DNA of 64,000 nt from Sipunculus nudus (Eukaryota; Annelida; Sipuncula; Golfingiida; Sipunculidae): the NCBI GenBank assembly GCA_026874595.1, contig CM049322.1, forward strand, positions 44,392,840-44,456,839. The letters run 5' to 3'. Shown here piece by piece: positions 2,827-63,836 of the stretch (its first letter is position 1; each line of letters starts with the position of its first letter). The translations under genes were made by a program, and so were the position numbers. The notes beneath the pieces are model-generated. The model was not told where the DNA came from, ran no database searches, and saw only the letters and a list, made by a program, of their open reading frames with translations.

Positions 2827-2961
2827 CTCTGAAGAAAAACAACACTGTTAATCCACTGGCCGGGTGATGAACCAGGGTTCCTTCAGAGTTTTTTCAGAGT
2901 TATACCGCTCTGGCCTTGTCTGTAGGCCATAGAGCACTATACATCGGAGGGTAACACTACC

Positions 2962-2964
<3 letters not shown>
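2826..2964 (+). repeat. Dispersed repeat copy 2 between two (TA)n tracts
   Basis: The interval lies exactly between two (TA)n tracts. It begins AACTCTGAAG and has the near-inverted copy TTTTTTCAGAGTT at about 2889-2903, then the CTGTAGGCCATAGAGCA word also seen near 115-140, and it includes the GGCCGGGTGATGA word of the 2091 copy. A small non-autonomous element inserted at TA would explain this; the family is unknown. Confidence 0.4.

Positions 2965-2996
<32 letters not shown>
2965..2996. repeat. (TA)n microsatellite
   Basis: A pure TA dinucleotide tract of about 32 bases. Confidence 0.95.
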
Positions 2997-2998
<2 letters not shown>

Positions 2999-3861
2999 CC
3001 GCTATCGTAGCTGCTGTGTAAACACGAAGTTTCTAATTAGGTAATGCTTTGCACCTTTGCACTCATGGGACCCGGCTTTCCTGTACTTAACCCATCTTGG
3101 CACTCAGCCAAAACTGTAAGCTCTGCCTATACTGTAGCAAAAGCCAAACGTGGTGTTTGATAGGTCGTTCTTGTGACAGAACTAAATTCCACTCGTTTTA
3201 AATCGTTTATAAAACAAAATGGTCTATTTATTCATGATATTATGTCATGTTTTTTTATAAGATCAACCGTCTTCTCCAAGTTCATATGTCTGTTTACATG
3301 TAATTTATGCTTAGTTAAGTCAGTTAACCAAATGAATTTAGTTTATGCCATTTTCTCTACCTATACACATTTTAGAGCGTTCTTCATCAGTTGATGTTTC
3401 AAGCAGCTGGGTAGGAAAACTTGTCTTCTAACAACATGCTGATTATTCGAGCATCTTGAGACGACTGCTATAACATGGTAACATGACAAAAATTTGAACG
3501 TCTTGAAGTCGATAATGAGACATAGTTAAATACTGATTAACAACTGGAGACCTTATACTTTATAAGAAATACAAAGCATGCGCTTACCCGAACAGCTGGG
3601 GATGTAAGCAAACTGCTGTCCAAGTGAAGATTCTCATCTTTTCATATAGCTAGGGGCAAAAAAAAAACAAACTTGAATATGGGTTGACCGGCAAAAAAAT
3701 CACTAAACAGCAACGAATGGAAATAATATTACATGCAGATAAATTTTCAAAAGACAATGAAAATAAGAATGATCTTATGAGAATACAATTATTGAGGTGT
3801 CGATGTTGATAAACCATGAATTACACCGTAACGGGTATAAAATATGGTGACCTAAAGAGAT

Positions 3862-41300: not shown

Positions 41301-42085
41301 TCCGCTGAATGTTTTTCGTAAACAGATAACCAGTATTTACCAGCTTTATCCATGTGGTCAGAGTATTTTATAATAAGGTCCACCAAGGTTATATTTGATA
41401 GAATACTCCTTTGATTCTCTGAATATTTCAAGCAAATATAGCCTAAATAATAAAGACCACACTCTTCCTTTGGGGTACAGGTAACAGAAAAACGATCAAG
41501 ACATATTAAAGCTAAATACACACAGTATTGTGGGGTAATAAATTGTTCTGAACTTTGGAATATGACTTGTGTTATTTTATCTAATTTATCTTCATGACTA
41601 CCTGGTTGAATGGAACGCATGAGAATGGCAATAAATGAGTAAGCTACTTCAGGACTAAAGCCTTGAACATGCAAGGACTTACTTCTGTCTAAATATGCAT
41701 TGTATTTTGGTGAAAATTGTGTAAAAATAAAATTGCATTTAGTATTGTTATCTACGATATACAACAAATCTGAAACATTGCAATTCTGCAAGCCATCAGA
41801 TCGATTCAGAATCAGCAGAAGGTCATCAGGATCCGTTAAAAGATAATCAGTTATTTTTGTAGCCTCAACCCCGGAAAGGCCACACTGGTGTTTTATAATG
41901 GTTGCAAGATCGTTATAAAAGAAATAATCAATGTTTAAAAAAATAACATATCGAAAGGTTTCTACTAAGCCTTCTTTTTTGGAATCATCAACTGATCTGG
42001 CCCATCGTAATGCGAGAATCTTCACCAGGGTTGACTTCCCACTGCCAGTGCAACCGTAGAGCAAGGTTCTCTTCAAGTCGGCTTT
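35390..42085 (-). CDS. Gene A exon 6: degenerate NACHT and ~60 LRRs
   Basis: A single 6,696-base exon begins after a good acceptor (TTTTTTCACACAG) and encodes 2,231 residues. The P-loop GCTGSGKST is at exon residues 11-19. The Walker B position reads LLLILNRSDG instead of the usual hydrophobic-DGxDE, and the sensor-1 segment reads FTQFSPK instead of TTRP. LRRs start near exon residue 455. Units of about 28 residues alternate between an L.LSgN...G...L type and an L.LsnC.c type, as in ribonuclease inhibitor, giving about 30 pairs. The open frame has no interruption, which argues for selection. An in-frame TTG at 42076 is not a start; coding continues to the acceptor. Confidence 0.93.
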   Translation of the reverse strand, partial: KADLKRTLLYGCTGSGKSTLVKILALRWARSVDDSKKEGLVETFRYVIFLNIDYFFYNDLATIIKHQCGLSGVEATKITDYLLTDPDDLLLILNRSDGLQNCNVSDLLYIVDNNTKCNFIFTQFSPKYNAYLDRSKSLHVQGFSPEVAYSFIAILMRSIQPGSHEDKLDKITQVIFQSSEQFITPQYCVYLALICLDRFSVTCTPKEECGLYYLGYICLKYSENQRSILSNITLVDLIIKYSDHMDKAGKYWLSVYEKHSADIRDNSKTETRLSLLLKSLQERSTSIYLPAFHLLHPENRDELNRLLNQNDPFDAANDIIDILNCLPKVMSLLSLSFDPIIARNILGWIAQSKNIFKSILRLRSTDLIVLINPIKKNKNMSNKDPCGTDEAMIIDLMTLENVSESDKLEISGNPHWPRLIMNLHMASLKHVTCINIDDQILPDQWSLSKFIDVFLGFKHLIEVRLTKFCVVQGFSKIAKCFAIMPFLKVLDLSHTQIEQQGIQELGCALKALLQLEVLALSWSGIHGLAHSEILYDSLESTSRLRNLNLAGNLLGDGGFNILSARILGFSVLNSLDISFMGCYSSVPITSLLYGLKKNSLLESLILDGNYLSPKGIHALVMIPSAKLKHISLETCLCRNMYECELYQEYCYSERKYESKMEISIRVKKLAVKLQNAPTTTFFQGTEDEKTYNDAVSTLARYLTEMPCLECLNLSKNPIVKTLSGCFDKIIPSLPRLKYLNLDNCFFLDEAEPANLIENMQIFSSIESIQMRGLLVSRELHMPLTETLSCWTTLNFLALSNWQLFEPPEKLTQYCSLPKFTNIILQESSFEDMKTVDSLICFVEPSRVKELSLENCRMTGQSSIINLVKHLNHASLEAISLVQNDLGIESTMALAKVIPSLRNLKSVTLSHCLYIENEAINNLFEQLLTVKCLEKLDVSHNKLDPIMFITLCKIIEGSKHLAYLHLDNVQCNQNIDFRLLLHSLANKSSIRVLCMGNISTGSRNDEKTLADSANWINVRRIDMSNLHFIHQSTFHVIVGYLQNSIYLQYLHLNGTPLGGEGFLKLSVVVQKLNFLQELGLNYCKCNEETSYVSLIQNLKECLHLRKLLLAGNISGNRGFKELGDILPCLHELRVLDVAYSMCSDNDSMLNLLKGLTHNYRLTHLDIRGNMITAHVCKQLQQIFSNCEWIMFFKPSVLLKETVSKMIHLEDIDLSDISVQSESISTFIEISESFTALQYFNIEHCGYADTEVVSSIIYKLKGLVSLKSINLSKNRLGKKGFCALKNVIPSLVNLRDLEVAYCEHECEEGFASFLRAVSKELQCLNIAGNSIGNKSIVALIECLQRTIQLKKLLVTLIQGIPELSIGDLLELLSNLTNLEALYFVESIFDRKELSLLNKAITKLSKLKHLKLPSCNQPGQYLLDGLFCVRDMLTLDLSDVNRLNHDEMKAIINLIPKWRMFHHLDVSNFIFPTSMLLDVISNLKYSVHINQLVLSNSKLGAKGFLALASVMPECVNIKVLKLENCGCEDEKAFCKLVKHLEYASALEILVLSGNRAGGEGMSAVSDILQHLHRLTEIGLANCACSKLESTLKLFQRLQDKTLLRSIVLSDVVSSADSVLELRKILSGFHFLRVLKIQLDVIDSHKQTYDLQSVPDRPELEIFQVGGVPFGANGVKLLSEVISKSIKLTEIDLKGWRCRDPESMAQFLRSIGTCRNIETLVVSGNVIDGDGYSALAKTLAKLQKLRVLNVSNCTRSERIFPQIIIHTLGKVTQLESLNISSNNLKKEGIAILARVLPQLMRLNELNVSNNNCSDSKAIEDLLKSVQQLPFIKSIDLTKNAVSQNGMKLLSQLVKTRQKMKVLALGRCSNSSSLQTEGFITNLLSSSELEKINLAHIPLDRTGIASLTTAVTTCNNIKILNISNCKCNISNDLAEGIITLLNLEILSLDNNYLPEGECKILGSGIGSLTKLRCLSLRGCKCNSHIALSSLIHGLKNALLLEKLLLSSNKLGRNGMHSLSLALLRWGNLRELDLNSEKNSDKEFNLIMIQNLKNVVYLKRLNLSNINVGYDGFMELSRILPCLHYLEYISIANWKCEKSSAHVSLVNSFRTLVKLRHIDMSGTQGRSQGVKAMSSVIGGLPILEYLNIENWLCDDALVTKQFLQTIKQYCLGLCYLNIRGNTLSKQGCETLKSMVPDMKSLKFLDVRHCHAGKDRLIDILNNIKSTNVHVKKFNIIN

Positions 42086-42190
42086 CTGTGTGAAAAAATT
42101 TGATAAAATATAAATATGAAAATAGGATATCTATAATTAACTTTATGACATTACATATAAAATTACTTGTATTCACTTTCTCTCTCGTTT

Positions 42191-42257
<67 letters not shown>

Positions 42258-45200
42258 TAACGTGTATGTATGTGTATATTGTCCTTATTATTTGCGTGTT
42301 TTATATTATCATAATCATCCTTTTAAGGAATACTGTTTTTAACATTACTGTTTTTTTAAGCTTGACTGAGGGAAACAAAGAGAACAGTTTTGCATCAATG
42401 TCTATAAATATCTATAAAGGGTATACTAATAGTAATTATAATAGCACCGATAATTGAAAAAGACAAAAAAATAAATCAATATTGATAACTATAAAATTAA
42501 ATAGAATCATACGGAATACGTTTCAGACTTTAATGATTTTGTGCCTTGCATATTTATAACATTTTTTTAAATGGTTAGGCTGTATAGAATAGAAAGCCGT
42601 AAAGTGATTTTGACTTTCATGAACAGTCATATTATATTCCTAAATAAAATGTTTCATGGATAATTAGCATAAACGTCATCATCTCAAATTGATTACGAGG
42701 AAATAAAAAAAGATGAATGGTTCTTACAGTTTCTGAAAAAAATGATTTCTCATGATAAAAGAATTGACCAAAAATACGATTTATTTTTCGTTGAATATCA
42801 TTTAAGATAGATCAGAACCGGGTAAGCAATATAAATCACTCTGACCAATTCATCTGTTGTGTCATGAATCCTGATATAATGATGGTTTGACGAAAAACTG
42901 TCGCTAATCTGACTATGTATTCAACACATAAGGGTTATGTATTGCCTGGTACACAGGCATGGTTTGTTGTGCCATATCTATATAATTAATACGGAGTTGG
43001 GTTTTTTCTAGACCACGGTTAACCAGCTTCCGATCTGATTTGAATCTCCAAATTCTGCAGACGTTTCAGTGGTGTACTCTTCTAGGACAAGTTTGTTTTA
43101 TTTTGCGGGATTATGCCCTATTAAGCTGAATAATTAATAATTTTAATATTTCCCCTTAAGGTGCCCCTATTTCTTTTGTGCTGCAAGTTCCTCCACGACG
43201 CTTTTTCAGGAGGCGCTTCGGGGATTTTCACTGGCTTGTTAAGACCGTTGCCAGAGCGCATGTCCTGTCCAAAAGGCACTCACTTCTAATGGTCCTCATT
43301 CTCTTGGTGACTTTGAAAACCCCGCCAGAATCTGCTGATCAGTCGTTCGTTCATACGTGCACGTTTCATGTAAAAAATTGTCATGGTTCAGAAACACGGG
43401 TTTACTAGGCGAGTGGCAAAACAACTGCATGCAAATGGGCGGCTTCTACTCGGGGACAAAGGAATAGCCCCTTATAATTAATTATTTCTTTGTGTGGTGA
43501 TTCCGATTACCGCCAAAAATGTAATGGATAACGGGTGCAGTTTTACTCTATCCCTCTACAAATTTTCAGCAAAATCTGTATATTACATTTTGCGTTAATT
43601 TGCCGAAAGACAATACAACGAACCAAGGCTCAAGTGGTTTCTTTGTTAAATGCTTTCTTCGAAATATATCAACCTGCTTTCTTTATATGAGGCAGAGTTG
43701 TCAATTTGGAATCAAATCTGCTTATTCTATGACAATTTACAGTACTTAAACGAAAAATTTAATACTGTTGGAATATATTTTCTGGGCCTGTCTTTTTCAC
43801 ATTGGCAGCTATAAGTTTCGCGTACAAGAGACTTCAACGACACATGCATGTGTATACAAATAACGCATGCGTCTGTTAACATGCCTTAGGCTATGCCCTC
43901 AACTTACTACACTGAATAAACATCGTGTTTCACGATATCGCCGGAGCTTTAACTAATACGAAGTATATTTCATATAATTTCATGGTAGAATGCTTCTTTT
44001 TACAATCGTTATATCTACGATATTTCCCAAGAAATGAAGAGCTTCCGCTAGATGGCGCAGAGGTAGGAAGCACTTTGTAGGAGCTCCGAAGTATTTTCCT
44101 AAATATAGGATAAAAGGAGTACATGAATACTCTGAAATGTGCCAAAACATTCATCTAGGAATATAACAATGGTGGACGAGTAAATTTAGCAAAACCAAGT
44201 ATTGCAAGAACTTTGGGTGGATATTTTTGTTTTGTCGAAAGAGCTACTGCCACGTCACAAGGCTGAGACTGGATAAATCCTGAATTACACGGCGGCCAAC
44301 ATGGACAGTCAAGGTAAACCAAATTTTGATATTAATTAACAAGTCGCTCCTTGTGAAGATTCAGCAACAATACCACAAGATTTATCTGATAGACAGCTCT
44401 TGGAATTAATTTGGACAAAAGTATCAAAAATTGACCAAATTGGCAGCCGTGTAGATGAATGCGTTAGAAAAATAAACTACCTCGAAAACAAACTTGATAA
44501 CTTAGAGACCAACTATAAAGAGCTGGAGGAAGGGACCTCTTATATAGAAGGAGAGTTTGAGGAGCAGAAAGCTACAATGGAAATTTTAAAGAAAAATATG
44601 GTGCAAAAGACGGACCTTGAAAAAGTTCAAAATGAAGTATCAGACCTAAGTAATTATACCAGAGGTAAAAATATACTACTTCATAATGTACCAGAAGGTA
44701 TGGAAGGTCAAAATACAACACAGTTTGTGGACCATTTTATTAAAGAAACCATTGCCGTTGATGACAGTCCAATAGAAGTTGCATACCGAATTCCTCAGTC
44801 TGGTGGTAATAAAACTAAGGTCCATGGGGCCAATGATGAAAAGAGATCACGAATAATATTGGTACGTTGCACCACAAAAACAAGCCGTGATCAAGTGTTA
44901 CGCGTGGCACCTAGTTCACTGAGTAAGAAAAAATTCAACGGCCAACAGATTTATGTAACGGATGATATACACAGTGATACACGCCAGATACACAAGAAAT
45001 TAGTACCAGCGATGCGAGAAATGCGAGCGAAGGGGTGGTTTGCTATTATCCCTTGGTCCGTCCCCAGAGTGATTCGTTACAGAGAAGGCCCAAAGGACTC
45101 AGGGTTACCTATGAAAACCTACAGGATTAAGTGACCCGTTTCAGCTTCAAATTTAATGGACTTGCATTAAAACAGCTACACACGTGGGGTATTTTCCTTT

Positions 45201-48200
45201 TTGATGCTTTTAAATTAAATGAATTGCAGACTGAGAGCTCCAGGTGCATGGTATTCCGTGTCTACCGGTGTTACTTGTGCATCCGACCGTGACGCCGGTG
45301 GTACATTCAAACGTTGCATGTGTTGTGTGCAGGGACTATCTTTGTGTGTATCCTTCATTTGCTATGTGTAACTTGGGTTTGTTGTGTTGGAGGTAAGGTA
45401 TTGTTTTTGTAATATATTTCTATTCTGAATGGAAAACTTGGTTAACTTTTCAGTTATTTCTCTTAATGTTAGAGGATAACGAAATTACGAAAAATGGCGG
45501 AAGTTGTTTAACTGGCTGGTGAAACACAGGGGGCGTAAGTCTGTCTGTTTCTTACAGGAAACACATTGTACACCTGAAATACAACAATCGTGGCGAAATC
45601 AATGGAGAGGCGAATCGTTTTTCTCTTTTGGTACAAGGGACAGCTGTGGTACAGTAACATTAATTGGAAGCGATTTAGAGTTTACAAAATTAGAAGAATT
45701 CAAAAGTGATGATGGACGTCTTATTATTTTTTACTGCCTGTTGCAAGGTTCTTATTTTCTCTTTATTAATTCATATTTTCCAAATATTGAAAAAAATCAA
45801 GTCCCCTTTTAATGCCAACTGCATAACCATTTACAGGATATTGATATTAATGATAATACAAATATCATTTGGGGCGGAGACTTTAATTGTGCCTTGTCAT
45901 TAAGGGATCAGGATTCGGATACTTCTCCTCTAAAAGTTCGCACAATAATGACGCTTGAAAATATTATTGAATCTCTTGACTTATGTGATTTCTGGAGACT
46001 GCGAAACCCGACTGTTCGTCAATTTACATGGAGGTCATTAACACCTCTACGACAAAGGAGACTTGATTACTATCTTGTGTCAAATAGTTTGCAACAATGT
46101 GTGACATCCACTGATATAATTCCAGCTGTGTCCACAGACCATTCGGCTGTTACCATTAGTCTTAATAATGAACATAGCCAAGGCCATGGTCCTGCACACT
46201 GGAAGTTCAACAATTCATTAACTCGGGATAATGATTATTGCCAACATTTATCAGAGAATGTTCCTTTATGGAAGCAAGAATTTTTTCAAAGTTACGAAAC
46301 GGTTGACCACAGAAAGTTGTGGGAATTCCTTAAATTTAAAATTCGCGAGTTTACTATTCGTTTCTCAAAGAAAAAAGCTAAAGTCAAGAGAGAAAAAATA
46401 CTTTGCCTTGAAAAAGAAATTAAGAAAATAGAGAGAAATATTAATTCTGAACCAGAGGCTATGGACAGATACATAAATCTTCGAAAACAACTTGATGATC
46501 ATTATAATTACATTACCGATGGCATGATTTTAAGGTCAAGAGCGCAATGGTATGAAGAAGGTGAAAGGAACAGTAAGTATTTTACAGGTCTTGAAAAAAG
46601 CAGAAAATCACAAACATTTTTGAGAAAACTTATTAATGAAAAAGGCAAAGAAATTACAGATCCACAGGATATAATCAGAGAATTACACTTGTATTATTAA
46701 AAAAAATATACTAGAATATCCAATTTAATCGACGATGATTGCCATAATTTTCTCAATTCCATTGACATCCCGGTGTTAACGGATACACAAAGATTGCACT
46801 GTGAAGGTGAATTTACAAGCCAGGAAATATATAAAACTTTGAGCGATATGTCTGGAAATAAAACGCCCGGAAATGACGGGTTAACTAAAGAGTTTTACAT
46901 TAAATATTTTTTTTCTGATAGGTCAAGAATTAACCAATTGTTTAAACGAGAACCATATTAAAGGCTAATTAACTAATAGCCAAAAGCAGGCTATTGTATC
47001 TCTTATTCCAAAGCAAGGTCGTGACTGTAGATATATAAAAAACTGGAGGCCTATAAGCCTTTTAAACGTAGATACCAAAATTATAAGTAGAATATTAGTT
47101 AATCGTATAAAGCCTTTATTGTCAACCCTAATTGGACCTGATCAATATGCGTTCGTACCAGGTAAATATATTGGGGAGCCAATAAGATTAATCGCGGATG
47201 CAATGCATTATTGTGATACTGAAAATACACCTGGCATTTTGGTAGGCGCGGATTATACAGCCGCTTTAGATTCGGTCGACCATACCTTTCTTTTCTCTGT
47301 TCTAAGAAGATTTGGCTTTTCTGAATGGTTTATAAAATGGGTCCGCGTGCTGCACACAAACATTGAGAGAAGTGTAGTGAATAACGGGTACGGTACCAAA
47401 TACTTTCCTTTTCAAAGGGGAACACGGCAAGGGGATCCTCTTGCTCCATATTTATTCATAATGGTTATGGAAATACTATGTCTTATGGTTAAGTATAATA
47501 AAAATATAGGGGGAATAAGGGTTGCCAAGTCAGAGATAAAAATGTGTTTATTTGCAGATGATTCGACATTTTTTATTAAAGACGAAAACTCTCTATTTCA
47601 CCTTGAGGAAGTACTTTGTAAATTTTCAAAATTTTCTTCTCTCAAAATTAACTTTGAGAAGTCTGATGCTTCATGGCTAGGCCCGTTAAAAACAGTGATA
47701 AGAAAATAGGCCACTTCAACTGGATAAATTTAACCAGAAATGCAATTAAAATTCTTGGAATTTATTTTACTTACAATAATACTATTAACCAGAAATGCAA
47801 TTTTGAAAAAGTTTTAACTTCCTTCACTACAAGTTTAGAGAGATGGAATCGTAGATCCTTGTCCTTTTTTGGACGAATAACAGTATTGAAAACATTTGCT
47901 ATACCAAAAATCATGTATCCTTGTATGATGCAATCTCCACCATCTTGCTTTCTCAAGGAGGTTCAAGATAAAATAAAGGGTTATTTCTGGAAGAATAAAA
48001 AACCAAAAATAAAACAAACGACACTCATTATGGATTATAAAGATCGGGGTTTAAAGTTACCTGACATTGAACTTGTTTTGAAGTGCCAAAAACTTATATG
48101 GGTCAACAAATTAATTAATTCTTCGGATACACCGTGGAAAATTATACCTAACTTTTATTTGAGAAAGATTGGTGGTATTAAAGGTGTAAATTGTAATTTT

Positions 48201-51200
48201 GATAGAGCACGGATCCCTAAATACTTACCAACATTTTATAAAGACTGTTTAAATGCTTGGGCAACCTCTATTCGCACGATACCCACTAATCGAGTTACAG
48301 TGTTGGCCCAGCCGCTCTGGAATAATTACTTACTAACTAGAGAAAGAGCTTCCTTCTATTTTAATACTATCTCTGGACACGGATATAACTTTTTAAAAGA
48401 CATTGTAGGAAATAATAATGAACTGATAAAATGGCAGGATTCAGGACTAGAGCTGAAGAAGTACATGAATTGGACCGCTGTCTTACATTCTATACCAAGA
48501 GAGTGGCTTAAACTGTTAAATCATGATATCCTAGAACAAAAAGATTCAACCAATGTACTTGACAAACCATGGTATTTAGAAAAGTTAAACGTCAGAACAA
48601 TGTACAGTAATTTAGTGAAAGAAAAAGGAATTCGCCCAACTGCACAAATACAGATACAAAAACTAGTAGGGACGGATATAGATTGGCAGTTAGTTTATGA
48701 GAGGCCCTTTAAAACCACAATTGAAACAAAAACTAGAGAGTTTCAGTATAAAGTTTTGAACGATACTTTACCATTAAACGAAAAATTATACAGATGGAAT
48801 CTTGTTGAAAATGATAGATGTTCATATTGTTCTATGAATGCTGAAACATCAGTTCATATTTTTTCAGAATGTGCTCAGAGTTGCTTAGTGTATAGTGAGA
48901 TTTGTAATTGGCTTATGGAATTCGATATAAAAATGCCAGAAAATACAAAAGAAAATATGTTGCTAGGAGTTATCATTGAGACAACAGAGGATGTATTAAT
49001 AAATCACTTGCTTCTTACATACAAAAATATGGTTTTTAATTGCGGGTTTCACCAAGTGAACTGTCTCTACAAAAATATGCAGCAATAATATTTAATTTGG
49101 AACGTATTGAATATAAAGTAGCAGAACAAAAAAATAAATTAGAAAACCATATTAAAAAGTCGGAGAAATTGAAGTCTTTCCTGTAATAGTACTGTAATAT
49201 TCGTATAAAAATTAATATACGATTATTTTCTTCTTGTACTACCTACAGATGTAGGAACTCTGATTGTTGTTATGTTTTTTTTTTTTTTTTCGTGGTTTGT
49301 AACGCGTATGTATCCTTTGATGTCTGTAAACTTCATGTATCGTCTTGTTAATTGTTTATATGTTATATTGTGTGATGTATTGTTGGTATTATATCAATAA
49401 ACCTATTAAAAAAAAAAAAGAAGCTGAGGAACCTATGTTGTCTATCTGAAAAAAAAATTTCACTTAAAAATTCGTACACCCCGTATATGCCTGACGTCTC
49501 TTTCCAATTTTTTTTTTTTTGGGTGCGATTTCTGGGTTAAAATATTTTTTTCTTTCTATGTAGATATTTTGGGGGAGGGTGTTCCTGGAGAATTCTAGCA
49601 GTAGTTATCTTTATATCATATAAGTGAAACACATGACACGGTTCCTGCAAAAAACCTTAGGATTAAAATATGCGTCGTTTAGTTCCAATCAACTCATTAC
49701 AAAAATATGCATCAGATAGAGCAGTGGATTTTCCACGGGTGCAGCTAGTATCAATAAAATATCTCATTGAATGCTAGATATTAGATACTGCAGGATAAAT
49801 ATATTTATTTTATTAGATTAATGGGATTTAACTTTTTTGCCTTAGATAATATATCAATGTTCTTTAACATAATTTGTTTAGCTATTCATTTTCTTCATAT
49901 ATTATGTATAACAAGGAGAGTGTATCCTTATAAGGCAATCCTCCGTTTTGTATTTGTACCAGATAATATTATGTACTATTAAAGTAATATCAGTTACCAA
50001 TGTAAAGTGTACGCTCGTTTCATTGTCAAATATCATTGAAACGTTTAAATGCACCATCACATGTAAAATCAGCTGTATAAAAGTAGTTTTCAAAATTCAA
50101 TATTAACCTGTCCTTAACAAATGGTATACAGATTAATTTAATACGGCTTTCAGGTACAAAATACTGAAAGGTATCATTATTAGCTCTAGTTTTAATTTTA
50201 CAATCTTAACATTTAATATTTTTATAGGTTTTTGTGCTAGATCGACTCATCCCGAAGCTATATTAGCAATATCAATGCATTTGGCAGGACACACTCGAAT
50301 GAACACTCACCGGGCCCATTTTGCTGCATATGTCAGTATAACTGCGCAGAAAATCTTTGTCTTCAGATATATTATTTTCTTGAAATATTTCCTCCAACGC
50401 CACTTCGTCTTCCTGTTCATTCTCTGATGTGATGATCATCCGTGAGAAGTCCTTGATATACCTCGTAGCCAGCGCTTTTTGCATATCATCATTAGCTCGT
50501 GCGAGTATCTCTACAAGAATGAGTCAGCTTTCACTAATTCGGTTCTCTGTTATAAATGTCAATATAACATAGATAAATTTGAAAGTAAAGAATTCTGAAC
50601 CATCTGGAAATGCTCACCACTTTTGTTGATCCTAAGAGCCAAGTCTTTTTTGTCTATTTTCTTCAAATATGAAAGAAACTTGTCAAACTGATCTTGAGTG
50701 CTAGACGCAAGATAATTGACTACCAATTCTGATTGCAACTCCTTCCTGTGTTTGAACTGAAAAAAAGTATGTAATTAATTATAGGAGTTGGGAGTTTTGC
50801 GGTATGAAAGTATTCCATTACTGATAATAAAGGACGCATCACATAATACACTCGCAAATACATATCATATAAGTACCCGATCTCCCCATTAGTCTTCTTT
50901 GAACGGCACTGTTGTTCACAGTAATTATTTTTTTTTAAATAAAATGTGTATAAAGTAACTAATCTGATTAATTATTTGATACAGATAAGTAGGTGGATAG
51001 ACACGTATGTATTTGTGTGCATCAGTGCAGCCCCTTGGGTAACTATAGCCCTAGAATAGTAATTATTTAACTGCTTTAACTTACCGCAAATCGTGCGGCA
51101 CGTCTGTTGAGTATAGAGCTGCTCAGCAGGTCACTTACAATCCGATCCTTTTCTTCGTTAAACATCCTTATCAATTCTGACTTGTGGCCATATATCGCTG

Positions 51201-54621: not shown

Positions 54622-57024
54622 TCAATGATCAAAAATTGACTGAATGTTTTCTTCCTTACATAACATTGCCTCAATATCAGGGTCCAAGCCACATTCGGAC
54701 AAATCTAATGTTTCCAATGACTGCGTCTGTTTCCAATACTCTGTTATAGAATCACCTAATGATGCAAAATTGTTGCCTGACAATATCAAATGTTTTATTG
54801 TTTGAGATTTTTGTACTGCGAGAAAAAAGGACTGAAGAGTATGAATGAGTTCAATTTTACAATCGGATAGATTGACATAATGTAAGTTATGTAAGTTTGC
54901 AAACTGTTTGATAAGTGTGCTTGTAACTGGGTCTCCAAATTTGTTTCCGCTGAAGTTGATTTTGAAAAGGTTGGTGCAGGTATGAAGAGACAAAACCAAT
55001 GCAGTCCACGTTTTCTCGTCATTGCAACTACTTTTGATTATTTCAACTGTCTCCAACTTTTTTAGATTACCTATTTGTTTTGTCAAATTTGTTAGACTAT
55101 TAAAACCAACTGTTTGTGACCCAAGTTTCAAAGAAACTATATTTGGGGTATACTGCAAGTTTAAAGTGATGCTTTCTACTAGATCACAGGTTCCTTCTCC
55201 TGCATCTGATAAAAACAAATGGGTTAATTTAGGTGTAAATTTCATTGAAGTTCCAATATATTTGTAACATATATCGGTGATTCTCCTGCCCGAAAAATCT
55301 AATCTCTTCAGGTTGCGGCAATTTTGCAGGGATTTGCAAATACCCTCAACATTCAGGGGTCCGCTTGTAGACATGTCGTTACAAATACAGAATGTTTCAA
55401 GATTTCGAAGATGAAGTAATGATGTAGAAACTAGGCTTATTAATTTATCTGATAAAAATGTGGAAGAAAAATCTAAGACCCGAAGCGAATTTTTTTCCTT
55501 CAAAAACTTCAGAGCTGTTAATAAATTGGTAGTATGATCATCAGGGAAATACTTGAAAGCGAGAATTTCCAAAGGGAACTGAGGTATCACCAGTGCTAGT
55601 CTATTTTGTTTTTCAGTCGTGTCATAATTACTTGCTGCTGATTGGAATCGTAATTCGAGCGAGTGCAATCCTGGGGCTTTCAAGCCTAACAACAGTTCTA
55701 ACTCTCTCACATTTGCCATTTCTAGTATTACAGATCTGACGTTTGATCCATCTAAGCTAAAGTACTTCTCCATAACGCACGATGTGTAGTCATGGTTAAA
55801 TGGAAGGTGTATACATTGTGGGAGTGAGAACTGGGCTTTTTTATTTTGAGAGAGATAATCAAGCTGAACTTTTGTAGCAGGCTCTGCAGTTTTGTCAGGT
55901 GATTTATTTATAATATCAATTATGCTGGAAGTGAAGGTTTCACCGCCAAGTGCACTTAGAAATCTTGTAAACAAGGATAAGTCTGTCAGGGCCCCACTTT
56001 TACTGTACATATTTACCAAAATTGTTTCCCTCTCTGTTTCGCAACAGTCTACCAGATAAAGGGCGGCAAAATATTCCTGTAAGCTTTTATGATAAAATTC
56101 GACACGTTGAAATGTTGTGCTAGAATCTAGAACTGCTTTGAATATTCCTAATTTCCACCCGCCTTCACCAATTTCTTGCAAAACCTCCTCCTTCGGAAAC
56201 CACAAGGTAAACGTTTCTGTCTGAAGTCCTTTAGACGCAAGGCGTCCGATTTTATGTAAACATGTCTTGTACTTTTGTAATATATTACCCTTACTGGAAC
56301 AGACTTGTTTTGGATAATACTTTTGCTCACACCTACCACATATGTGTTTAATTATCTCTTTGTACAAGTCAGCCAAGGTCTCAGCAAGAATACCGTACTC
56401 TCTCCACAGAATACACATCAGTAACAGTAAAGTTGGACAACGGCCGTAGCTTTTAAGATCTTCCGCGGAATTAATTTTTTCTTTCAGTTTTCCGCCTTCC
56501 TCTGTGTGGTTAAAGAAAGAATTTATAAAATTATCTCTGCTAGTATCTGTGAATCCCTTTAATAAATATACAGTATAAAGTTTTTCTGCCGCTGTATCAA
56601 GTGGATACATGGTTGAAGTGTGGAGCGGTCTGGTGGTGAGGAAAAGATTGATATCTGGCAATTCACCTCTGAGAATGCTGGTGACTTCTTCTGAGTTTTC
56701 TTCTTTGTATTCGTCGTATCCATCCAACACTAAAAGTACCTTTGATGGAGAACGCTTTAAAAATTCGTAAAGTTGTTTAGATTCCTCTACATTCAGCAAA
56801 AGCTGTGACTGAAAAATGTCTTCTAACCCCTGCCCAGGAGCAACATACCTGAGAAAAATTGGTATGATTAATTCAAATTGAAGTAACATTTTGGAGTCTA
56901 TGTCTGTTGAAAGTTTCTGTGCATTCTTACTCCAATCGATGGCAAGTCTTTGACACAGTGTAGTTTTTCCAGTACCAGCTTCCCCAATAACCTTAATTCT
57001 TAATCGCCGCTTTATTCCATAGGC
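54622..57024 (-). CDS. Gene B exon 10: NACHT and LRRs
   Basis: A 2,403-base exon starts after acceptor TTTTACTCCAACAG, phase 0. It holds a complete NACHT signature: GEAGTGKTT, then LLVLDGYDEY, then LFLTTRPL, then the LLKGF....R..F segment. A helical region follows and then ribonuclease-inhibitor-type LRRs of about 28 residues with LSGN and LSDC words. NACHT ATPases of the STAND class oligomerise on ligand sensing; LRRs usually restrain or sense. Confidence 0.95.
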   Translation of the reverse strand, partial: AYGIKRRLRIKVIGEAGTGKTTLCQRLAIDWSKNAQKLSTDIDSKMLLQFELIIPIFLRYVAPGQGLEDIFQSQLLLNVEESKQLYEFLKRSPSKVLLVLDGYDEYKEENSEEVTSILRGELPDINLFLTTRPLHTSTMYPLDTAAEKLYTVYLLKGFTDTSRDNFINSFFNHTEEGGKLKEKINSAEDLKSYGRCPTLLLLMCILWREYGILAETLADLYKEIIKHICGRCEQKYYPKQVCSSKGNILQKYKTCLHKIGRLASKGLQTETFTLWFPKEEVLQEIGEGGWKLGIFKAVLDSSTTFQRVEFYHKSLQEYFAALYLVDCCETERETILVNMYSKSGALTDLSLFTRFLSALGGETFTSSIIDIINKSPDKTAEPATKVQLDYLSQNKKAQFSLPQCIHLPFNHDYTSCVMEKYFSLDGSNVRSVILEMANVRELELLLGLKAPGLHSLELRFQSAASNYDTTEKQNRLALVIPQFPLEILAFKYFPDDHTTNLLTALKFLKEKNSLRVLDFSSTFLSDKLISLVSTSLLHLRNLETFCICNDMSTSGPLNVEGICKSLQNCRNLKRLDFSGRRITDICYKYIGTSMKFTPKLTHLFLSDAGEGTCDLVESITLNLQYTPNIVSLKLGSQTVGFNSLTNLTKQIGNLKKLETVEIIKSSCNDEKTWTALVLSLHTCTNLFKINFSGNKFGDPVTSTLIKQFANLHNLHYVNLSDCKIELIHTLQSFFLAVQKSQTIKHLILSGNNFASLGDSITEYWKQTQSLETLDLSECGLDPDIEAMLCKEENIQSIFDH

Positions 57025-60000
57025 CTGTTGGAGTAAAATAACATTATACACAAAGACAGAATTGCAAATGGATATAAATCCCCAACCCAACATGTCAAAA
57101 ACAATTTAAACAGTTATCATAAATTATGTTGCCTGGCTCGGTTTAGTGCTTAAGGTAAAAAAACATACCGGAATCGTTTTGTCCACAATAAATAGCTGTA
57201 CCTATAAGACAAAGTGTTTTTTTTTATATAATCTTTGTACATGTGTTCGTCATTATATAATCATTACATGCAGGAACTTTATGAATATCTTGCCCTACCT
57301 TTTCAAACATGACACAATAGTCAGAAATGCTTCCTTGGCGAAGACCACGCGTCGTTTGAGTGAGCTCTACAAGCTCCAGGTCAGTAAAGATGTCGTCCAT
57401 AGCCAATGATGCGTCGTCATCAAGCCAGCTCCAGCTTTCTATTTTTCCAAACATTTTTGTTATATTGTCAACTAGGCTTCGTTTCCCTTGATTCCATTTT
57501 AGTCGTTCTAAATTTGATTTAAACAGACGAAAACACATTTGTAACTATCTGGCATTACCTACTACTTGCGTATATCATTGCGTACCGGCAAATTAAAATC
57601 ACCTTGTTTCAAATTATAAAATGTTTATGTTATTGTACTTTGCCATTAATAAGGCTAAGTCAACAAAATAAATGGAAAAAAAGAAGTTCAGAAATAGACT
57701 AAAAGAATTAAATATACCTGTTTGTTTAGACATGAGCGGTATATCAGTGTCATCATTAATTCTTGTCGGGTGTCGCTTGTAAAATGCAGGTATGATCTAT
57801 AATAATCAAGATAATTTTATTCCGTTTTAATCCGTGACAGTGGCAATTGATTAGAGACCAAACTATTTGACATTAACTGAAATTACAACATAGACAAAGC
57901 ATATATTATTTCTACACCATGAAAATCATCTTTTGTCATTTTGATTTAAACTAAATCAATAACATTTAAAGCATATGACAAACTCTCACTTTTAAAAGAC
58001 TTACCTTCTTCTTAATGACGTAAATGAAAACGACTGATAACGTTAGGGCTAAAGACCCGAGAGTGGCTCCCATAATCAATTTTGTTCTATATCTGTTGCC
58101 GTTTTCAACTGAATATCCTAAATAAAAAAAACCTTATGGGCAAAATTCGGGAAATTAATTATATCATTTTAAAAAGTCAATATTTAAATATTAAGGCCTT
58201 GCTATAAAATGTAGAAAATAGTATTTGTTCACGATAGCAGAATTTTTTTTTCTTAAATTTCCTATCTTTTGTACATTTCATCACAGATAATATTCAAGCG
58301 CATATGTACCACTTTCTTTTGGTAGGTCAAAATAAAACATTCACAAGCGGTAGATTTCTTTTACATATATCCAAACAACAGTTGTTACAGTCAACTCCCG
58401 AACCTGAGGAATTCGTGACAGGCCATTCCAGTCCTTGTGTGGACGTGACTGGCAGGTTTGTGTAACTGCTTTCAGGCTCTTTAAAGTCGGGTACATTTTG
58501 CAGTCCTGCGGAATATTGTATACCATACTATAAATACACATTGGACAACATGGTATCTTTCTTGGGCTGGACTCTTAAGATATGCTATTACTTTGAATAT
58601 AAATATCATCCTGTGGTGATGCGGGTCAAATAGTAAGTTTTGACAGAGACAGAGAAAGAAAGAAAAGTACAGTATAATATGGATCAAAAGCTTTGTTTCA
58701 ATCACGTAACGTTGTGAACATTTAAGAAAAAAATCATTCTACCTGATGCCTGACAGATAAAATGTTTTTTGGCACTGCAGTCAGATGCTTTAAGGTAGGA
58801 TTCTTCTTTGTCGGAGTAAAATACAAGACAATCCCCCACATCAGATGGCTCTCCTTTACCCCAAATCCATATGGGCTCCACGCTTATGTTTGACACTATA
58901 AAAAAGGAAGCTACTGCGAAACGTTTCGGGTTATGTGACATTTCATGTAAGATCCGTTAGTTTCAACAAATTCAACAGCAGTTTTATAAACATTTATTAA
59001 GTAGTTACCCTTTGTGCTCCAATCTTCACTCCTTAAGCCAATCCAAAAATTTTCACATTTTGATTTGAGTTTAGTCAAAGATGTAACAGGTGACTTGTTC
59101 TTAAAAACGGCCAAATCATCTCCGTCTTCTTGACATGCGTAGCGAGCATTGTACCAACTATTCTTCTCACAGAAATACAAGAAACAAGTGTTTCCTATTT
59201 TCATACAAATGTTCGACTTCCATCCGAGAGATGCACATGACAAGCAATCTATAAACATAGAAACAATGTATTGATTAAACATGATGAATGTAAAAGGTAT
59301 ATATGTAACTAAATTATTGAGAATCATACATATCCGTTTTATTCATCGGAAGAAATATGAATTTACTAAGCCATAATGCTATCTACAATGAGTATCTACA
59401 GTGATGTAATACTTCAAATAGGAAATGCAAGCAGATTGTCGAACTATAGAATTATTTTTGAATAGGCATACTTCAATAGTTTGATGTTAATTGAAATTAG
59501 GTGACATGCTAATGTTACCTTGGATGTGGCACATATACCCAAATGTCAAATCAGAACATCGTGATTCATAAAGAGCTGGTTCGCTCCGATTATAGTAGGC
59601 ACATCTGTCTTCTCTGTCTCCATAATTACCTACATACGTTATTTTTAAGTACAAAACTATTTCACAGATGTTCTGATAGAAATCGAATCATGAATCAGAT
59701 ATTAAGGTACACGTTTTAGTGATGTTTCATGTTATATCAAAGCATTGTTTTTATTTATCAAAATGCTTTAGGCAAAACAGGATAGATGAATGAGTTTTTT
59801 TTTAATACTTATTTTAATTAAAAAAATAATTATCTAAAACTGAGGCCAAAAGTTAATGAAATTCTGCTACTGTGTGATATAACATCAGTTGTATGTACCA
59901 TACACAACTTTATATGTATATGATGGGCAATCATTATTCGTTAAGAGTAAAAGTTATCAGCATACCACAATATGTAAAATATGTCAAATTTACCAAACTT

Positions 60001-60390
60001 CTTTTCCTCTTGACCGTTAATCCAAGACCAAACTGATAGATTTTTCCTTTTTGGTGACATCCAGACCTCAGAAAATCTCGCCAGCCGCATCTGTCTTTCA
60101 TACTCGCTAAAATAGCTCCTATTAAACGAGATTGGAAGAGTTCCGTCCATGGTTCTACGACAACAATCGAGGGCGTTGTCCTGGTCTAATGGTTTCTGAG
60201 CACATATATCTTGCGGCATGCCGACAACTATAAATAAATGCAAATTCCAGTTAACTAGCTTTGGCATAAATATATAGTTATTGTGTTTGTTAAATCAATT
60301 CCGGTATAAATTTGATTATTTTACTTGGAGGAGTACACTACCTGCGTTATTAAGTAATAATAAAATTGATGGAAACATCGCATGTGTCAT
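54622..60390 (-). CDS. Gene B: transmembrane C-type lectin-NACHT-LRR receptor
   Basis: Ten coding exons join in phase: 60390-60342, 60227-59994, 59629-59519, 59248-59009, 58895-58743, 58505-58404, 58117-58005, 57796-57718, 57507-57299 and 57024-54622. The total is 3,693 bases (1,230 aa). Order: signal peptide (1 to about 18), lectin-like domain 1 (about 20-131), lectin-like domain 2 (132-262), Ser/Thr/Pro stalk (263-296), one transmembrane helix (about 310-330) followed by KKK, juxtamembrane segment (335-360), acidic linker (361-430), NACHT (Walker A GEAGTGKTT 444-452; Walker B DGYDEY 531-536; sensor 1 TTRP near 561) and about ten LRRs (942-1230). Introns after the transmembrane exon are only about 210-275 bases, so a split into two genes is unlikely. 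By inference it is a surface receptor with an NLR signalling tail. Transcript proof is lacking. Confidence 0.82.
57299..57507 (-). CDS. Gene B exon 9: cytoplasmic linker
   Basis: Acceptor AAATCAAATTTAG, donor TTTGAAAAG|GTAGGG, entry phase 1, exit phase 0. The product contains ASLAMDDIFTDLELVEL, like the segment before the P-loop in gene A exon 5 and in other NLRs. Confidence 0.82.
57718..57796 (-). CDS. Gene B exon 8: juxtamembrane segment
   Basis: Acceptor GATTATTATAG, donor ACAAACAG|GTATAT, phase 0 in and 1 out. It encodes 26 residues beginning IIPAFYKRHP. Only this frame joins both neighbours without a stop. No ITAM or other known signalling motif is seen. Confidence 0.72.
58005..58117 (-). 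CDS. Gene B exon 7: transmembrane helix
   Basis: Acceptor TTTTTATTTAG, donor AAGAAG|GTAAGT. The other two frames are closed by stops. The product has RYRTK, then about 21 hydrophobic residues (including LGSLALTLSVVFIYV), then IKKK, which places the C-terminal side in the cytosol by the positive-inside rule. Confidence 0.85.
58404..58505 (-). CDS. Gene B exon 6: extracellular stalk
   Basis: A symmetrical phase-1 exon of 102 bases, acceptor AATATTCCGCAG, donor CCTCAG|GTTCGG (weak). It is rich in Pro, Ser and Thr with an NSS glycosylation site. Read-through of the donor would add about 25 residues and stop at 58327. Confidence 0.65.
58743..58895 (-). CDS. Gene B exon 5: C-terminal half of lectin-like domain 2
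   Basis: A symmetrical phase-1 exon with good splice sites. It contains WIWGKGEPSDVGDC and DCSAKKHFICQ, the usual second half of a C-type lectin-like domain. EPS stands where mannose-type lectins have EPN, and no WND motif is present. Confidence 0.9.
59009..59248 (-). CDS. Gene B exon 4: N-terminal half of lectin-like domain 2
   Basis: A symmetrical phase-1 exon of 240 bases. It has the long-form N-terminal Cys pair, FCEKNSWYNARYACQ and the hallmark FWIGLRSEDW. Confidence 0.92.
59519..59629 (-). CDS. Gene B exon 3: C-terminal half of lectin-like domain 1
   Basis: A symmetrical phase-1 exon with product words RCAYYNRS and RCSDLTFGYMC, typical of the disulphide-bearing end of the fold. No calcium-site motif. 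Confidence 0.82.
59994..60227 (-). CDS. Gene B exon 2: N-terminal half of lectin-like domain 1
   Basis: A symmetrical phase-1 exon with ICAQKPLDQ, DCCRRTMDGTLP and VWMSPKRKNLSVWSWING. The WIGL core is replaced by VWMSP, so the domain is divergent. Confidence 0.78.
60342..60390 (-). CDS. Gene B exon 1: signal peptide
   Basis: Starts at ATG 60390 and reads MTHAMFPSILLLLNNA with a donor CGCAG|GTAGTG, phase 1. A hydrophobic core next to a small-residue end fits a short signal peptide. The in-frame sequence upstream is microsatellite. Confidence 0.75.
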
Positions 60391-60931: not shown

Positions 60932-60992
60932 ATGGATTTTTTTATTTACCTATCTACCCTGTTGATTGCCAGTATTCATCGTGAATGTGCTG
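60932..60992 (+). CDS. Gene C exon 1: signal peptide
   Basis: ATG at 60932, product MDFFIYLSTLLIASIHRECA, donor GTGCTG|GTAAGT, phase 1. Hydrophobic core and small residues fit a signal peptide. Confidence 0.82.
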
Positions 60993-63836
60993 GTAAGTAC
61001 TGTTTGCATACCTTCCCGAACATGCTAATAATCATAAAGCTGTTATTTTATTCTGAATGTCTTTACTCTGATTCGAAACAGGTAGCGAGCAGGTACATTT
61101 ATGCCAATCGTGGAACGCAGTCACAAGCCAATGCGAAAATTGCAAAGACCGTTGCAGTCTCCCTGTTATTAAAGACATGGACGACTATAATAGAATAGCT
61201 AACACCATGCAATCGAATAACGTAAAAGCTGTCTGGTTGGGTATAAAAAGAACATCCCTCGACGAATTTTTGTGGCTTGACTGTACCAGGCCATGTGAGT
61301 ATCCCATTCATCAATGGAGACATGTTTAATACCATTTGAGTATATCGACAACTCTTTTGTCCCTTTTTGTAAGTGAATTAAAATTAACTTTCCCCGTTTG
61401 CATGAACGTGAGTAATTAACTCACCCTGAAATTCTATACCCTTACTCAATCATATCAACTATCATTGTTACAGCCAACGTGTTCACAAGACTGAGTACGA
61501 ACCAGTCAAAAAATTGCGCAGTTCTTGACACTAAAAATGCAGCAATTTTACCAGCCGATTGTACCGATGAAGACAAAGGAGTAATTTGTCAGAAAAACAA
61601 TAAGTATTCATTTCTCTTTCTGCATTCGTTTTGTGAGCAAGTATCAAGTTTTATTGTTTGACCTGTTTCATATATATTATGAGAGAAAGAAAGAGAGAGA
61701 AAAAGAGAAAGAGAGAGTGAAAGATAGAGAGAGAGTGAGAGAGAGTTAGAGGGTTATATTTTTAGTTAAGGTTTGCTTATTTGTATTTCATCGGCAATCT
61801 TTGATTATGACAATTACCGGGATATTCATTTCAAGGGACCTACTCTAGAGTAATATTTTGGATAATCTTTTATATTTTCAGTTAAGTTTAGTTTTTACAA
61901 CAGTTTCCCAGAAAAACTCACCACAATCTCACTTCCTTGCATACTGATCTTTAACACCTTGTTATGGTTATGGGTGTAGGTAAGCACGGTCCATGTGTGT
62001 TTTTTTTTTGTTCACCATAACAAGGCCTAATTCTGATTTTGGTCTGATTTTGCCTATGTACACCAGATCTGAAACAAGAACTCATCCATGCATGGACCTT
62101 CGTGCCCTTTGATATATCTTTGTTCGATGGACATTAAGGTCCAAGGGTTTAATGTTAATTCAGTGAAAAACCTATCGGGACAGATCTATACGATCGACCC
62201 AGGAGCATAAGCTTAAATAACACGCGTATGAAAGTGAGAGCCCCAGTTCGCATTGTTTCAACCAGCGGGAACATGTGTATCATTTTGTAGGCTAAGTCAG
62301 TGAGGGCATTACCTGAGTGACAGGTGTTGTGGCCCAGGTGATGCACGCGCTCTGTTTATGTGGACGCCTGTAATCGCGCCCGATCTACTTTTTTAACAAT
62401 TGTGTACAGGTGTAATGTTTTTGGGTTTAATGGTTTTAATGTGGGGAGGAGTTATATTTCGTGTTAATTCAACATACTTTATAGGCCCCTTTAGAAGAGT
62501 ACCTTCCCTCAAAATGTAATCAACTAATCAACTTATTTATAAGATATTAAATGATAGGTTTGTCATTATGGAGTGTTTTGATAACGCCTTAGTTTTTTTT
62601 TTGTCACCTGTAAATTTAAAACTGAAATAAATCAATAATATCATCATGTGCATGAAGAGAGCCCGCATCTTGCCCATGACATCACTCTGTATGTATGAAC
62701 AGGTTGTGTGGATGGTTGCAGCAGCGTTGGTCGTGATAATGAACAGTGTATTCATTTGGATGGAATGGATCGATGTTATATCAGAAGATATAATGACTTT
62801 AACTGGGAAAGAGGAAAGGCTTACTGTTTATTAAAAGGATGGACTATGGCGATAATGAGCGGCTCCAATGAACAAGATATAGTGCATGAATTATCTAGCA
62901 GATTTAAACCAAGTGGAATGGATGGTGATCAAGAAATGTACTGGATTGGCCTCAGAAGAGAGGAATGGCTAAGAATTCCTGCAGAACCCGGTTAGTATAA
63001 CACCTTGAGTCTTTGTAAAATTTCGTGAATGAACATTTTGTTGAACGGGGTATGGTTATATTATACAAGGATGCTAGTTTTTATTTTACTAATCTGATTT
63101 CAAGTGTTACATGTGTTTGTTAACGAATAATAACGGAAGGAAAGGTTATTTTTTTTGTAGTTGTGTACCTTGTGTTCGATTCATTTAATCGCATGCGTGT
63201 TAATACTCAATCTTGGAATAAAAAATGAGTCATAGATGATTTAATTATATTTTAATAAACAGAATTAATAAGCTGCGTATTTGGCAATTCCGCTATCTAT
63301 AATCTACTCACAATATGTACTTCAGGTAGAAAATATGTCTCTTTTTGGGTCAGAGGTGAACCATCTAGTAACGGAAACTGTTCCGTCATGGTTAAGGGTT
63401 CCACGGGATATGGGTGGAAGGCCGTGGCGTGTTCATCAAAGCACCATGCAATATGTAGCACTGCTGGTATGTATTTCTACATTTTTGTAAAACTTAACGG
63501 TTTGCTTCAGATTATGATTATATTACAAAAGCAACTCTTAAAATTTGTTTTAAATGTTGTAGTTTTGATCCTTTGATTTAGCGGTTGAACCCGAAGACCA
63601 TTAGGAATGAAATATTAATCTACAGAAAAATGGAAATCAACCACTGGTAAAACCCAATAATAAAAATTATTAAGTTATTCAATCCTGTAGACATTCGTTT
63701 AAACATTTGTTGAACCGTTTCCCAGAAACAAAAGAAAGTCACACCAAGTCAAAACAATGCCCTACAGTTATAACAGAAAGATCTGATGCTGGTCCTAGAA
63801 CAATAACGGCGGCTAGGACTGAACATCCGAATATAG
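60932..63836 (+). CDS. Gene C (partial): signal peptide, two C-type lectin-like domains, stalk
   Basis: Six exons are seen: 60932-60992, 61082-61294, 61474-61632, 62703-62990, 63326-63466 and 63726-63836, all joining in phase 1 (about 324 residues so far). The order and intron phases repeat the ectodomain of gene B. Domain 2 has YWIGLRREEW and GEPSSNGNC, close to FWIGLRSEDW and GEPSDVGDC in gene B, so the two are paralogues. The stalk exon ends at donor ATATAG|GTATGT and the gene runs out of the window. A transmembrane exon and perhaps NACHT-LRR exons are expected next, by analogy only. The exon 3 end is uncertain. Confidence 0.8.
61082..61294 (+). CDS. Gene C exon 2: N-terminal half of lectin-like domain 1
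   Basis: Acceptor GATTCGAAACAG, donor GGCCAT|GTGAGT, phase 1 in and out. Several Cys residues, then VWLGIKRTSLDEFLWLDC, the WIGL-type core. Confidence 0.88.
61474..61632 (+). CDS. Gene C exon 3: C-terminal half of lectin-like domain 1
   Basis: Acceptor TTGTTACAG. The product has NCAVLDTKNAAIL and DCTDEDKGVICQ. The domain would naturally end near 61603, where a GTATTC donor exists but leaves the wrong phase. A GTGAGC donor at 61633 keeps phase 1 with exon 4 and adds about ten residues. Confidence 0.72.
61633..62702. other. Gene C intron 3
   Basis: A GA-rich tract lies at 61680-61750; the rest is AT-rich. No further lectin-like exon was seen. Confidence 0.5.
62703..62990 (+). CDS. Gene C exon 4: N-terminal half of lectin-like domain 2
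   Basis: Acceptor TATGAACAG, donor AACCCG|GTTAGT, phase 1 in and out. Contains WERGKAYCLLKGWTMAIM and YWIGLRREEW. Confidence 0.9.
63326..63466 (+). CDS. Gene C exon 5: C-terminal half of lectin-like domain 2
   Basis: Acceptor TGTACTTCAG, donor CTGCTG|GTATGT, phase 1 in and out. Contains FWVRGEPSSNGNC and ACSSKHHAIC. EPS is at the calcium-site position, as in gene B. Confidence 0.9.
63726..63836 (+). CDS. Gene C exon 6: stalk
   Basis: A phase-1 exon of 111 bases rich in Thr, Ser and charged residues, matching the stalk exon of gene B in place and size. Acceptor CGTTTCCCAG. Confidence 0.75.

Follow-up and report, generated by a model that had tools for sequence, protein, structure and literature searches.

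Does a run of C-type lectin-like domain (CTLD) exons, a membrane-helix exon and NLR exons on one strand encode a membrane lectin lying beside a cytosolic NLR, or a single receptor that spans the membrane? This question is raised by the minus-strand locus 60390-54622 in a stretch of 64,000 nucleotides from Sipunculus nudus (contig CM049322.1, C17:44392840-44456839; hereafter the window), which we analyzed together with its relatives in the same 1.43 Gb genome. We found that joining ten exons of this locus gives a single open frame of 1230 residues, and that CTLD exons, a membrane segment and a NACHT exon follow one another in this order in ten divergent relatives. As judged from sequence, the locus is likely to be one gene for a type I receptor, whose tandem CTLDs and stalk lie outside the cell and are linked by one helix to a cytosolic NLR in which Pfam searches found no death-fold effector. 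This receptor would most likely act from the outside in.

The original prediction had proposed ten exons of matching phase, and all ten could be located, with AG/GT borders throughout, no stop within the 1230 residues, and intron phases of 1-1-1-1-1-1-0-1-0. The exons are as follows:

Exon 1, 60342..60390, minus strand: start codon and moderate signal peptide; phase 0 to 1.
Exon 2, 59994..60227, minus strand: first half of CTLD 1; phase 1 to 1; homologous 1a exons in the related loci L009, L010, L012, L025, L029 and L030.
Exon 3, 59519..59629, minus strand: second half of CTLD 1; phase 1 to 1.
Exon 4, 59009..59248, minus strand: first half of CTLD 2, with the Lectin_C match; phase 1 to 1.
Exon 5, 58743..58895, minus strand: second half of CTLD 2; phase 1 to 1.
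Exon 6, 58404..58505, minus strand: stalk; phase 1 to 1; donor fixed by the reading frame.
Exon 7, 58005..58117, minus strand: membrane helix LIMGATLGSLALTLSVVFI and basic stop-transfer; phase 1 to 0.
Exon 8, 57718..57796, minus strand: juxtamembrane linker with the C-terminal end IPLMSKQT; phase 0 to 1.
Exon 9, 57299..57507, minus strand: pre-NACHT exon with the MDDIFTDLELVE motif; phase 1 to 0.
Exon 10, 54622..57024, minus strand: NACHT, HD2-like region, leucine-rich repeats (LRRs) and stop.

The donor of exon 6 must lie at 58404, because a longer donor leads to an in-frame TGA. The last three introns, which separate the helix from the NACHT, measure 208, 210 and 274 bases, all below the 300 bases originally proposed. 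The accompanying claim that every other frame is closed had to be abandoned, as a second frame is also open in exon 6 (stops per frame 0/2/0) and in exon 8 (0/0/5).

The outer part of the joined protein begins with a putative signal peptide. Its hydrophobic core has a hydropathy of 2.44, but the peptide is only moderate and the donor of its exon is weak (score 1.5), so that this part of the prediction stands with reservation. Lectin_C matches the second CTLD (residues 160-260) with an E of 3.5e-13 in Pfam; the first CTLD alone gives a weak match (E 1.3e-4) that at 23.0 bits lies barely above the cut-off of 22.6. In C-type lectins, the EPN and WND residues hold calcium and sugar. In an alignment with L-selectin, which covered CTLD 2, the EPN/QPD and WND residues were not kept, EPS and ASD standing at what we take to be the sugar-binding positions. 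Sugar binding by CTLD 2 is therefore not predicted, and the ectodomain is a lectin only in the structural sense of a CTLD fold recognized by sequence. The membrane helix expected in the joined protein was found as a single strong hydrophobic segment at residues 310-328 (hydropathy 2.15; next best elsewhere 1.45), with KKK and further basic residues on its inner side. Residues 1-305 contain 16 cysteines and six N-glycosylation sequons, the latter counted on the outer side alone. Altogether, the predicted type I membrane topology is supported. Exon 8, the part of the tail inspected for this, contains no YxxL motif of the immunoreceptor tyrosine-based activation (ITAM/hemITAM) type.

The cytosolic part has the intact NLR core that had been anticipated. 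Pfam detects NACHT at residues 441-603 (E 3.3e-16), the core can be aligned with NOD2 and NLRC4 chains, and exon 10 contains GEAGTGKTT, LLVLDGYDE and FYHKSLQEYF, which we take to be Walker A, an extended Walker B and the winged-helix motif with its conserved His. That all three are kept argues for selection on the NACHT switch. NLRC4_HD2 reaches an E of 1e-4 but stays under its cut-off, and LRR_1 scores 24.6 bits against a cut-off of 20.6, the remaining LRR models being under theirs. An AlphaFold2 model of exon 10, built from a three-sequence alignment and of moderate confidence (mean predicted local distance difference test score, 67.8), shows the LRR part as repeats. When this model was searched with Foldseek, the best 50 rows were all NLR chains or oocyte complexes that presumably contain NLRP proteins, with E down to 7.6e-25 and template modelling scores (TM-scores, per query) of merely 0.24-0.56; examples are NLRC4 (E 1.1e-24) and NLRP9 (TM-score 0.56). 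No CARD, DEATH, DED, TRADD-N or Ig family was detected in the protein by Pfam at E up to 10.

Whether this arrangement is an accident of one locus can be judged from its recurrence. A NACHT search of the genome gave at least 99 matches, and we sampled the best 20, each with roughly 9 kb of upstream sequence, plus three loci (L029, L030 and L031) picked for nearby CTLD matches. CTLD exons lie on the same strand upstream of NACHT in five of the best 20 (L009, L010, L012, L018 and L025), as well as in the three loci selected by CTLD-NACHT proximity. In a reverse test, five loci (L033-L037) were selected for the similarity of their CTLDs; of these, L033 and L036 continue through a phase 1-to-0 membrane exon to pre-NACHT and NACHT; L037 reaches a pre-NACHT exon, and its stretch ends before any NACHT. 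Including the window there are thus 11 lectin-membrane-NACHT arrangements, located on C17, C6, C13, C9 and C12, and the best CTLD and NACHT matches of the relatives are about 24-46% identical to the window gene. LRRs are present in the window, L033 and L036, the loci examined for them; the other stretches end within the NACHT exon. Because the arrangement recurs in ten diverged relatives spread over five chromosomes, it is unlikely that a lectin gene merely lies beside an NLR gene, and the proposal of one gene is strengthened accordingly. The window gene is not unique but belongs to what, from its sequence, is a family of lectin-NLR receptor genes, multicopy in this genome. When residues 1-700 were searched against 5.8 billion predicted proteins, with animal coverage unchecked, two of 7995 scored candidates matched, both with NACHT/LRR labels and neither with Lectin_C; no relative of the fusion from another species emerged from that database.

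The membrane exon further separates these loci from other NLR genes. A strict scan covered 4 kb upstream of NACHT, with phases free, in nine lectin-bearing loci (window included), 15 lectin-less loci and 24 antisense stretches. A phase 1-to-0 membrane exon was found in 7/9 lectin-bearing loci versus 0/15 lectin-less loci (Fisher, 1.0e-4) and 0/24 antisense stretches (8.4e-6), counts to be read with the knowledge that the 1-to-0 criterion was fixed after a first look at the membrane exons, which tilts somewhat toward lectin-bearing loci, and that the lectin-less controls are not independent, 11 of the 15 falling in one clade and several being almost identical. Membrane exons in any phase occur in 9/9, 3/15 and 4/24, respectively. 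Among the best 20 NACHT loci alone, the phase 1-to-0 form is present in four of five lectin-bearing and none of 15 lectin-less loci, and the strict setting also recovers it in L033, L036 and L037.

For the remaining exons, imposing the phases of the window gave exons 2a and 2b in all nine loci, 1a and 1b in seven (window included), and juxtamembrane and pre-NACHT candidates in all nine, the pre-NACHT exon being weak in L018, L025 and L029. Exons 1a and 1b were not found in L031, where exon 2a is preceded by about 830 bases of covered sequence. When phases were free and splice sites scored, the expected phases were obtained for 33 of the 44 exons matched in relatives (1a, 6/6; 1b, 5/6; 2a, 8/11; 2b, 7/11; pre-NACHT, 7/10). 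The pre-NACHT exon scores higher in sense than in antisense in 10/11 loci, L033 having no 1-to-0 candidate; in a phase control that omits splice scores, other phase combinations tie with 1-to-0 in 10/11 loci, and L033 scores solely in another combination. A scan for signal exons yielded candidates stronger than that of the window in L009, L010 and L029 and no sense-strand candidate in L012, L025 and L030, with an imperfect control (three antisense candidates in L010 and five in L030).

Several observations weigh against the reading of a single receptor gene. Apart from the weak donor of the signal exon, the phases in the nine-locus scans of CTLD, juxtamembrane and pre-NACHT exons were imposed and not found, 11 of the 44 free-phase matches take another phase (none of three is as expected in L033), and in the window gene itself free scoring shifts the borders of four of five exons, in a self-alignment that rewards longer borders. 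In L012 and L030 the best membrane exon is phase 1 to 1, the 1-to-0 form being lower-scoring and under the strict setting, and no first CTLD is detectable in L018. One AATAAA and one ATTAAA in intron 7 mean that a short-tailed form ending there is possible, and L035 (with L038) has CTLD exons and no NACHT or known cytosolic domain within 9.2 kb. As the calcium and sugar residues are not conserved, something other than a sugar may be bound, and no output domain was found in the protein, which makes the output step of any mechanism a guess.

One relative found through its CTLDs, L034, carries a different tail. Here, a lectin-membrane module is followed by exons of a guanylate-binding-protein (GBP) GTPase (L034 1-3062), the two GTPase exons matching GBP in Pfam with an E of 1.1e-14:

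193-441: CTLD exon; phase 1 to 1.
598-741: CTLD exon; phase 1 to 1; a shorter form, 598-708, scores slightly more.
1431-1519: membrane exon; phase 1 to 0; missed by the strict scan.
1636-1678: juxtamembrane candidate; phase 0 to 1; fits the frame.
1803-1877: juxtamembrane candidate; phase 0 to 0; slightly higher score, would not fit.
2552-2748: GBP exon; phase 1 to 0; similar scores at other phase-1 acceptors.
2919-3062: GBP exon; phase 0 to 0.

If the candidate at 1636-1678 is right, L034 and the NLR members share the phase-1 intron at which the junction lies. Lectin-membrane modules of one kind occur on NACHT and on GBP, which suggests that the module may be interchangeable.

Opposite-strand CTLDs were also observed next to these genes. 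A head-to-head neighbour of the window gene (L032; window 60932-63466, plus strand, with a membrane exon at 64077-64213 just beyond the window) has a signal exon whose start codon lies 541 bases from the start codon of the lectin-NLR gene, four CTLD exons (recovered with phase 1 to 1 imposed) and a membrane exon of phase 1 to 0; neither a NACHT nor a pre-NACHT exon was found in the following 10 kb. Antisense CTLD exons lie upstream of the lectin-NACHT genes in L009 (1368-1625) and L010 (829-1062; NACHT oriented plus), which suggests that divergent receptor pairs may recur. We are evenly divided on whether these loci are combinatorial receptors, in which one phase-1-ended cassette (CTLD-CTLD-transmembrane-juxtamembrane) is set on alternative cytosolic NTPases (NACHT at 11, GBP at one), with an opposite-strand upstream CTLD gene or exon at three, and exon shuffling wires recognition to switches.

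As to descent, a tree of 25 NACHT sequences (10 lectin-bearing, 15 lectin-less) places the lectin-bearing NACHTs in clusters and not in one clade. It requires four changes, at least three of them forced by well-supported branches, and contains several long branches. A single origin does not follow from this tree, a further point against the simplest form of our reading; the pattern is compatible with loss, with repeated fusion and with recombination. Of the 14 lectin-less loci examined by eye (L024 left out), 12 have a similar pre-NACHT exon. Upstream of L013 and L017, both lectin-less NLRs, lie half-CARD exons that do not reach the Pfam cut-off, and a piece of L028 matches Death at an E of 0.077 at best. 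The like pre-NACHT exon and the sub-threshold half-CARD exons suggest that the CTLD-transmembrane part may occupy the slot of a death-fold effector. The lectin-NLR gene was probably built by joining the CTLD-CTLD-transmembrane-juxtamembrane cassette, through a phase-1 intron, to an NLR cassette.

If the gene is transcribed as one mRNA and its product reaches the cell surface, a microbial surface or another multivalent ligand could cluster the CTLD ectodomains. This clustering would bring the NACHT modules together and favor their shift to an ATP-bound oligomer, so that the ectodomain would control the ATPase directly. The oligomer might then recruit cytoskeletal, endocytic or helper NLR partners, coupling ligand binding to uptake and inflammatory signalling, as is reported for AjNLRC4, a membrane-bound NLR of sea cucumbers. 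By this analogy, signalling from the outside in is the most likely direction.

The N-terminal slot of an NLR is usually that of an effector, and oligomerisation probably clusters the N-terminal membrane segments of certain bacterial STAND proteins. A possible but rather unlikely alternative is an anchored NLR that works from the inside out, its LRRs sensing a cytosolic ligand and its NACHT oligomerisation clustering ectodomains or helices, with the membrane part as anchor or effector. The position of the membrane part in place of a death-fold domain and the modelled repeats of the LRR part agree with this view, as do the bacterial NACHT proteins with N-terminal membrane helices described in one report (PMC13133943). 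However, two cysteine-rich CTLDs with sequons, and the retention of CTLD exons across many relatives, suggest outer recognition, and AjNLRC4 acts from the outside in.

With a similarly small chance, the protein could be a scavenger or endocytic receptor whose NLR part is a mere scaffold for uptake and whose ATPase is dispensable. The NACHT of AjNLRC4 binds actin, and several juxtamembrane exon candidates, including 57718-57796 of the window, end in PL[LIM], some fitting a [DE]xxxL[LI] sorting signal, although candidates were ranked by their likeness to the window exon, which biases this ending. The conservation of Walker A, Walker B and the winged-helix His speaks against a dispensable ATPase.

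Still less probable are two adjacent genes, a membrane lectin ending after exon 7 or 8 and a cytosolic NLR, expanding jointly as tandem pairs. The AATAAA and ATTAAA of intron 7, an in-frame Met inside exon 9 that could start a cytosolic form, and the CTLD modules without a nearby NACHT in L034 and L035 are consistent with such a pair. However, the juxtamembrane exon has no stop, and its phase-1 donor fits the phase-1 pre-NACHT exon only 210 bases away; the arrangement is repeated on five chromosomes in strongly diverged relatives; and the phase 1-to-0 membrane exon is absent from the 15 lectin-less NLR loci, three of which have a candidate in another phase. Finally, an assembly or pseudogene artefact, conceivable in a large duplicated family and a repeat-rich region, is barely credible given 1230 codons without stop or frameshift and recurrence at ten other places.

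Other features were noted in the same sequence. A 2246-residue open frame (window 35390-42130, minus strand) with the P-loop GCTGSGKST and, by eye, a very long LRR-like run resembles a second, intron-poor NLR-like gene, and open frames resembling a retrotransposon of the long interspersed nuclear element type (by eye) lie at 44340-49088 on the plus strand. Elsewhere in the genome, among 100 matches listed, at least 43 dispersed open frames unsplit by introns (329-382 residues; for example C8:80201999-80202793 and C17:7549082-7549876) are 22-27% identical to the tandem-CTLD ectodomain. To judge from their sequence, these are possibly a CTLD protein borne by a mobile element.

Should the genes be transcribed as predicted, an outer binding event would act on the NLR switch directly, with no adaptor in between, and ectodomains of one kind would be wired to differing cytosolic NTPases. 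Outside gating of NACHT modules thereby becomes testable, and the family offers a natural domain-swap series from which the contribution of the cytosolic part could be learned. The arrangement further suggests a way in which an animal lacking antibodies could vary its recognition independently of its response.

Vertebrate NLRs have death-fold N-termini and neither signal peptide nor ectodomain. The window protein shares NACHT, winged helix, an HD2-like region and LRRs with NOD2 and NLRC4, and differs in its CTLD-transmembrane part, with predicted helix and ectodomain, in the N-terminal slot. Its CTLDs resemble by sequence those of CLEC12A, CD69 and selectins. Vertebrate C-type lectin-like receptors signal by short tails or partners, whereas an NLR tail is present here. 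In the excerpts of the open-licence PMC papers searched, no protein joining CTLDs and a transmembrane helix to NACHT or GBP was found, and a multicopy CTLD ectodomain on an NLR, together with a module of this kind on a GBP, is apparently new within that literature.

Membrane NLRs as such are already known, and the premise that animal NLRs lack ectodomains is outdated. Membrane-bound NLRs are likewise predicted in sponges and sea anemones (PMC12909245, PMC5094078), the excerpts of these reports mentioning no CTLD ectodomain. Also known is a constant ectodomain-transmembrane module on variable cytosolic parts: the receptor-like TRADD-N family of the oyster Crassostrea virginica sets such a module on parts that include STAND NTPases and AIG GTPases (PMC8195603). 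The oyster proteins have a cysteine-rich ectodomain and a DED/TRADD-N core, whereas in S. nudus CTLDs are joined directly to NACHT or GBP, with no DED/TRADD-N by Pfam. The closest parallel is AjNLRC4, an Ig-transmembrane-NACHT protein which is reported to be a surface receptor whose Ig ectodomain binds microbes, which oligomerises and whose NACHT binds actin (PMC8699970), and which after internalisation joins caspase-1 via its Ig domains (PMC11932488). Extracellular recognition domains, a helix and an intracellular NACHT in one chain are common to this type of protein and to our gene model (PMC8699970, PMC13133943). Surface location and pathogen binding are experimental in AjNLRC4. While AjNLRC4 combines an Ig ectodomain with two predicted helices and no LRR, the predicted window protein combines CTLDs with one helix and LRRs.

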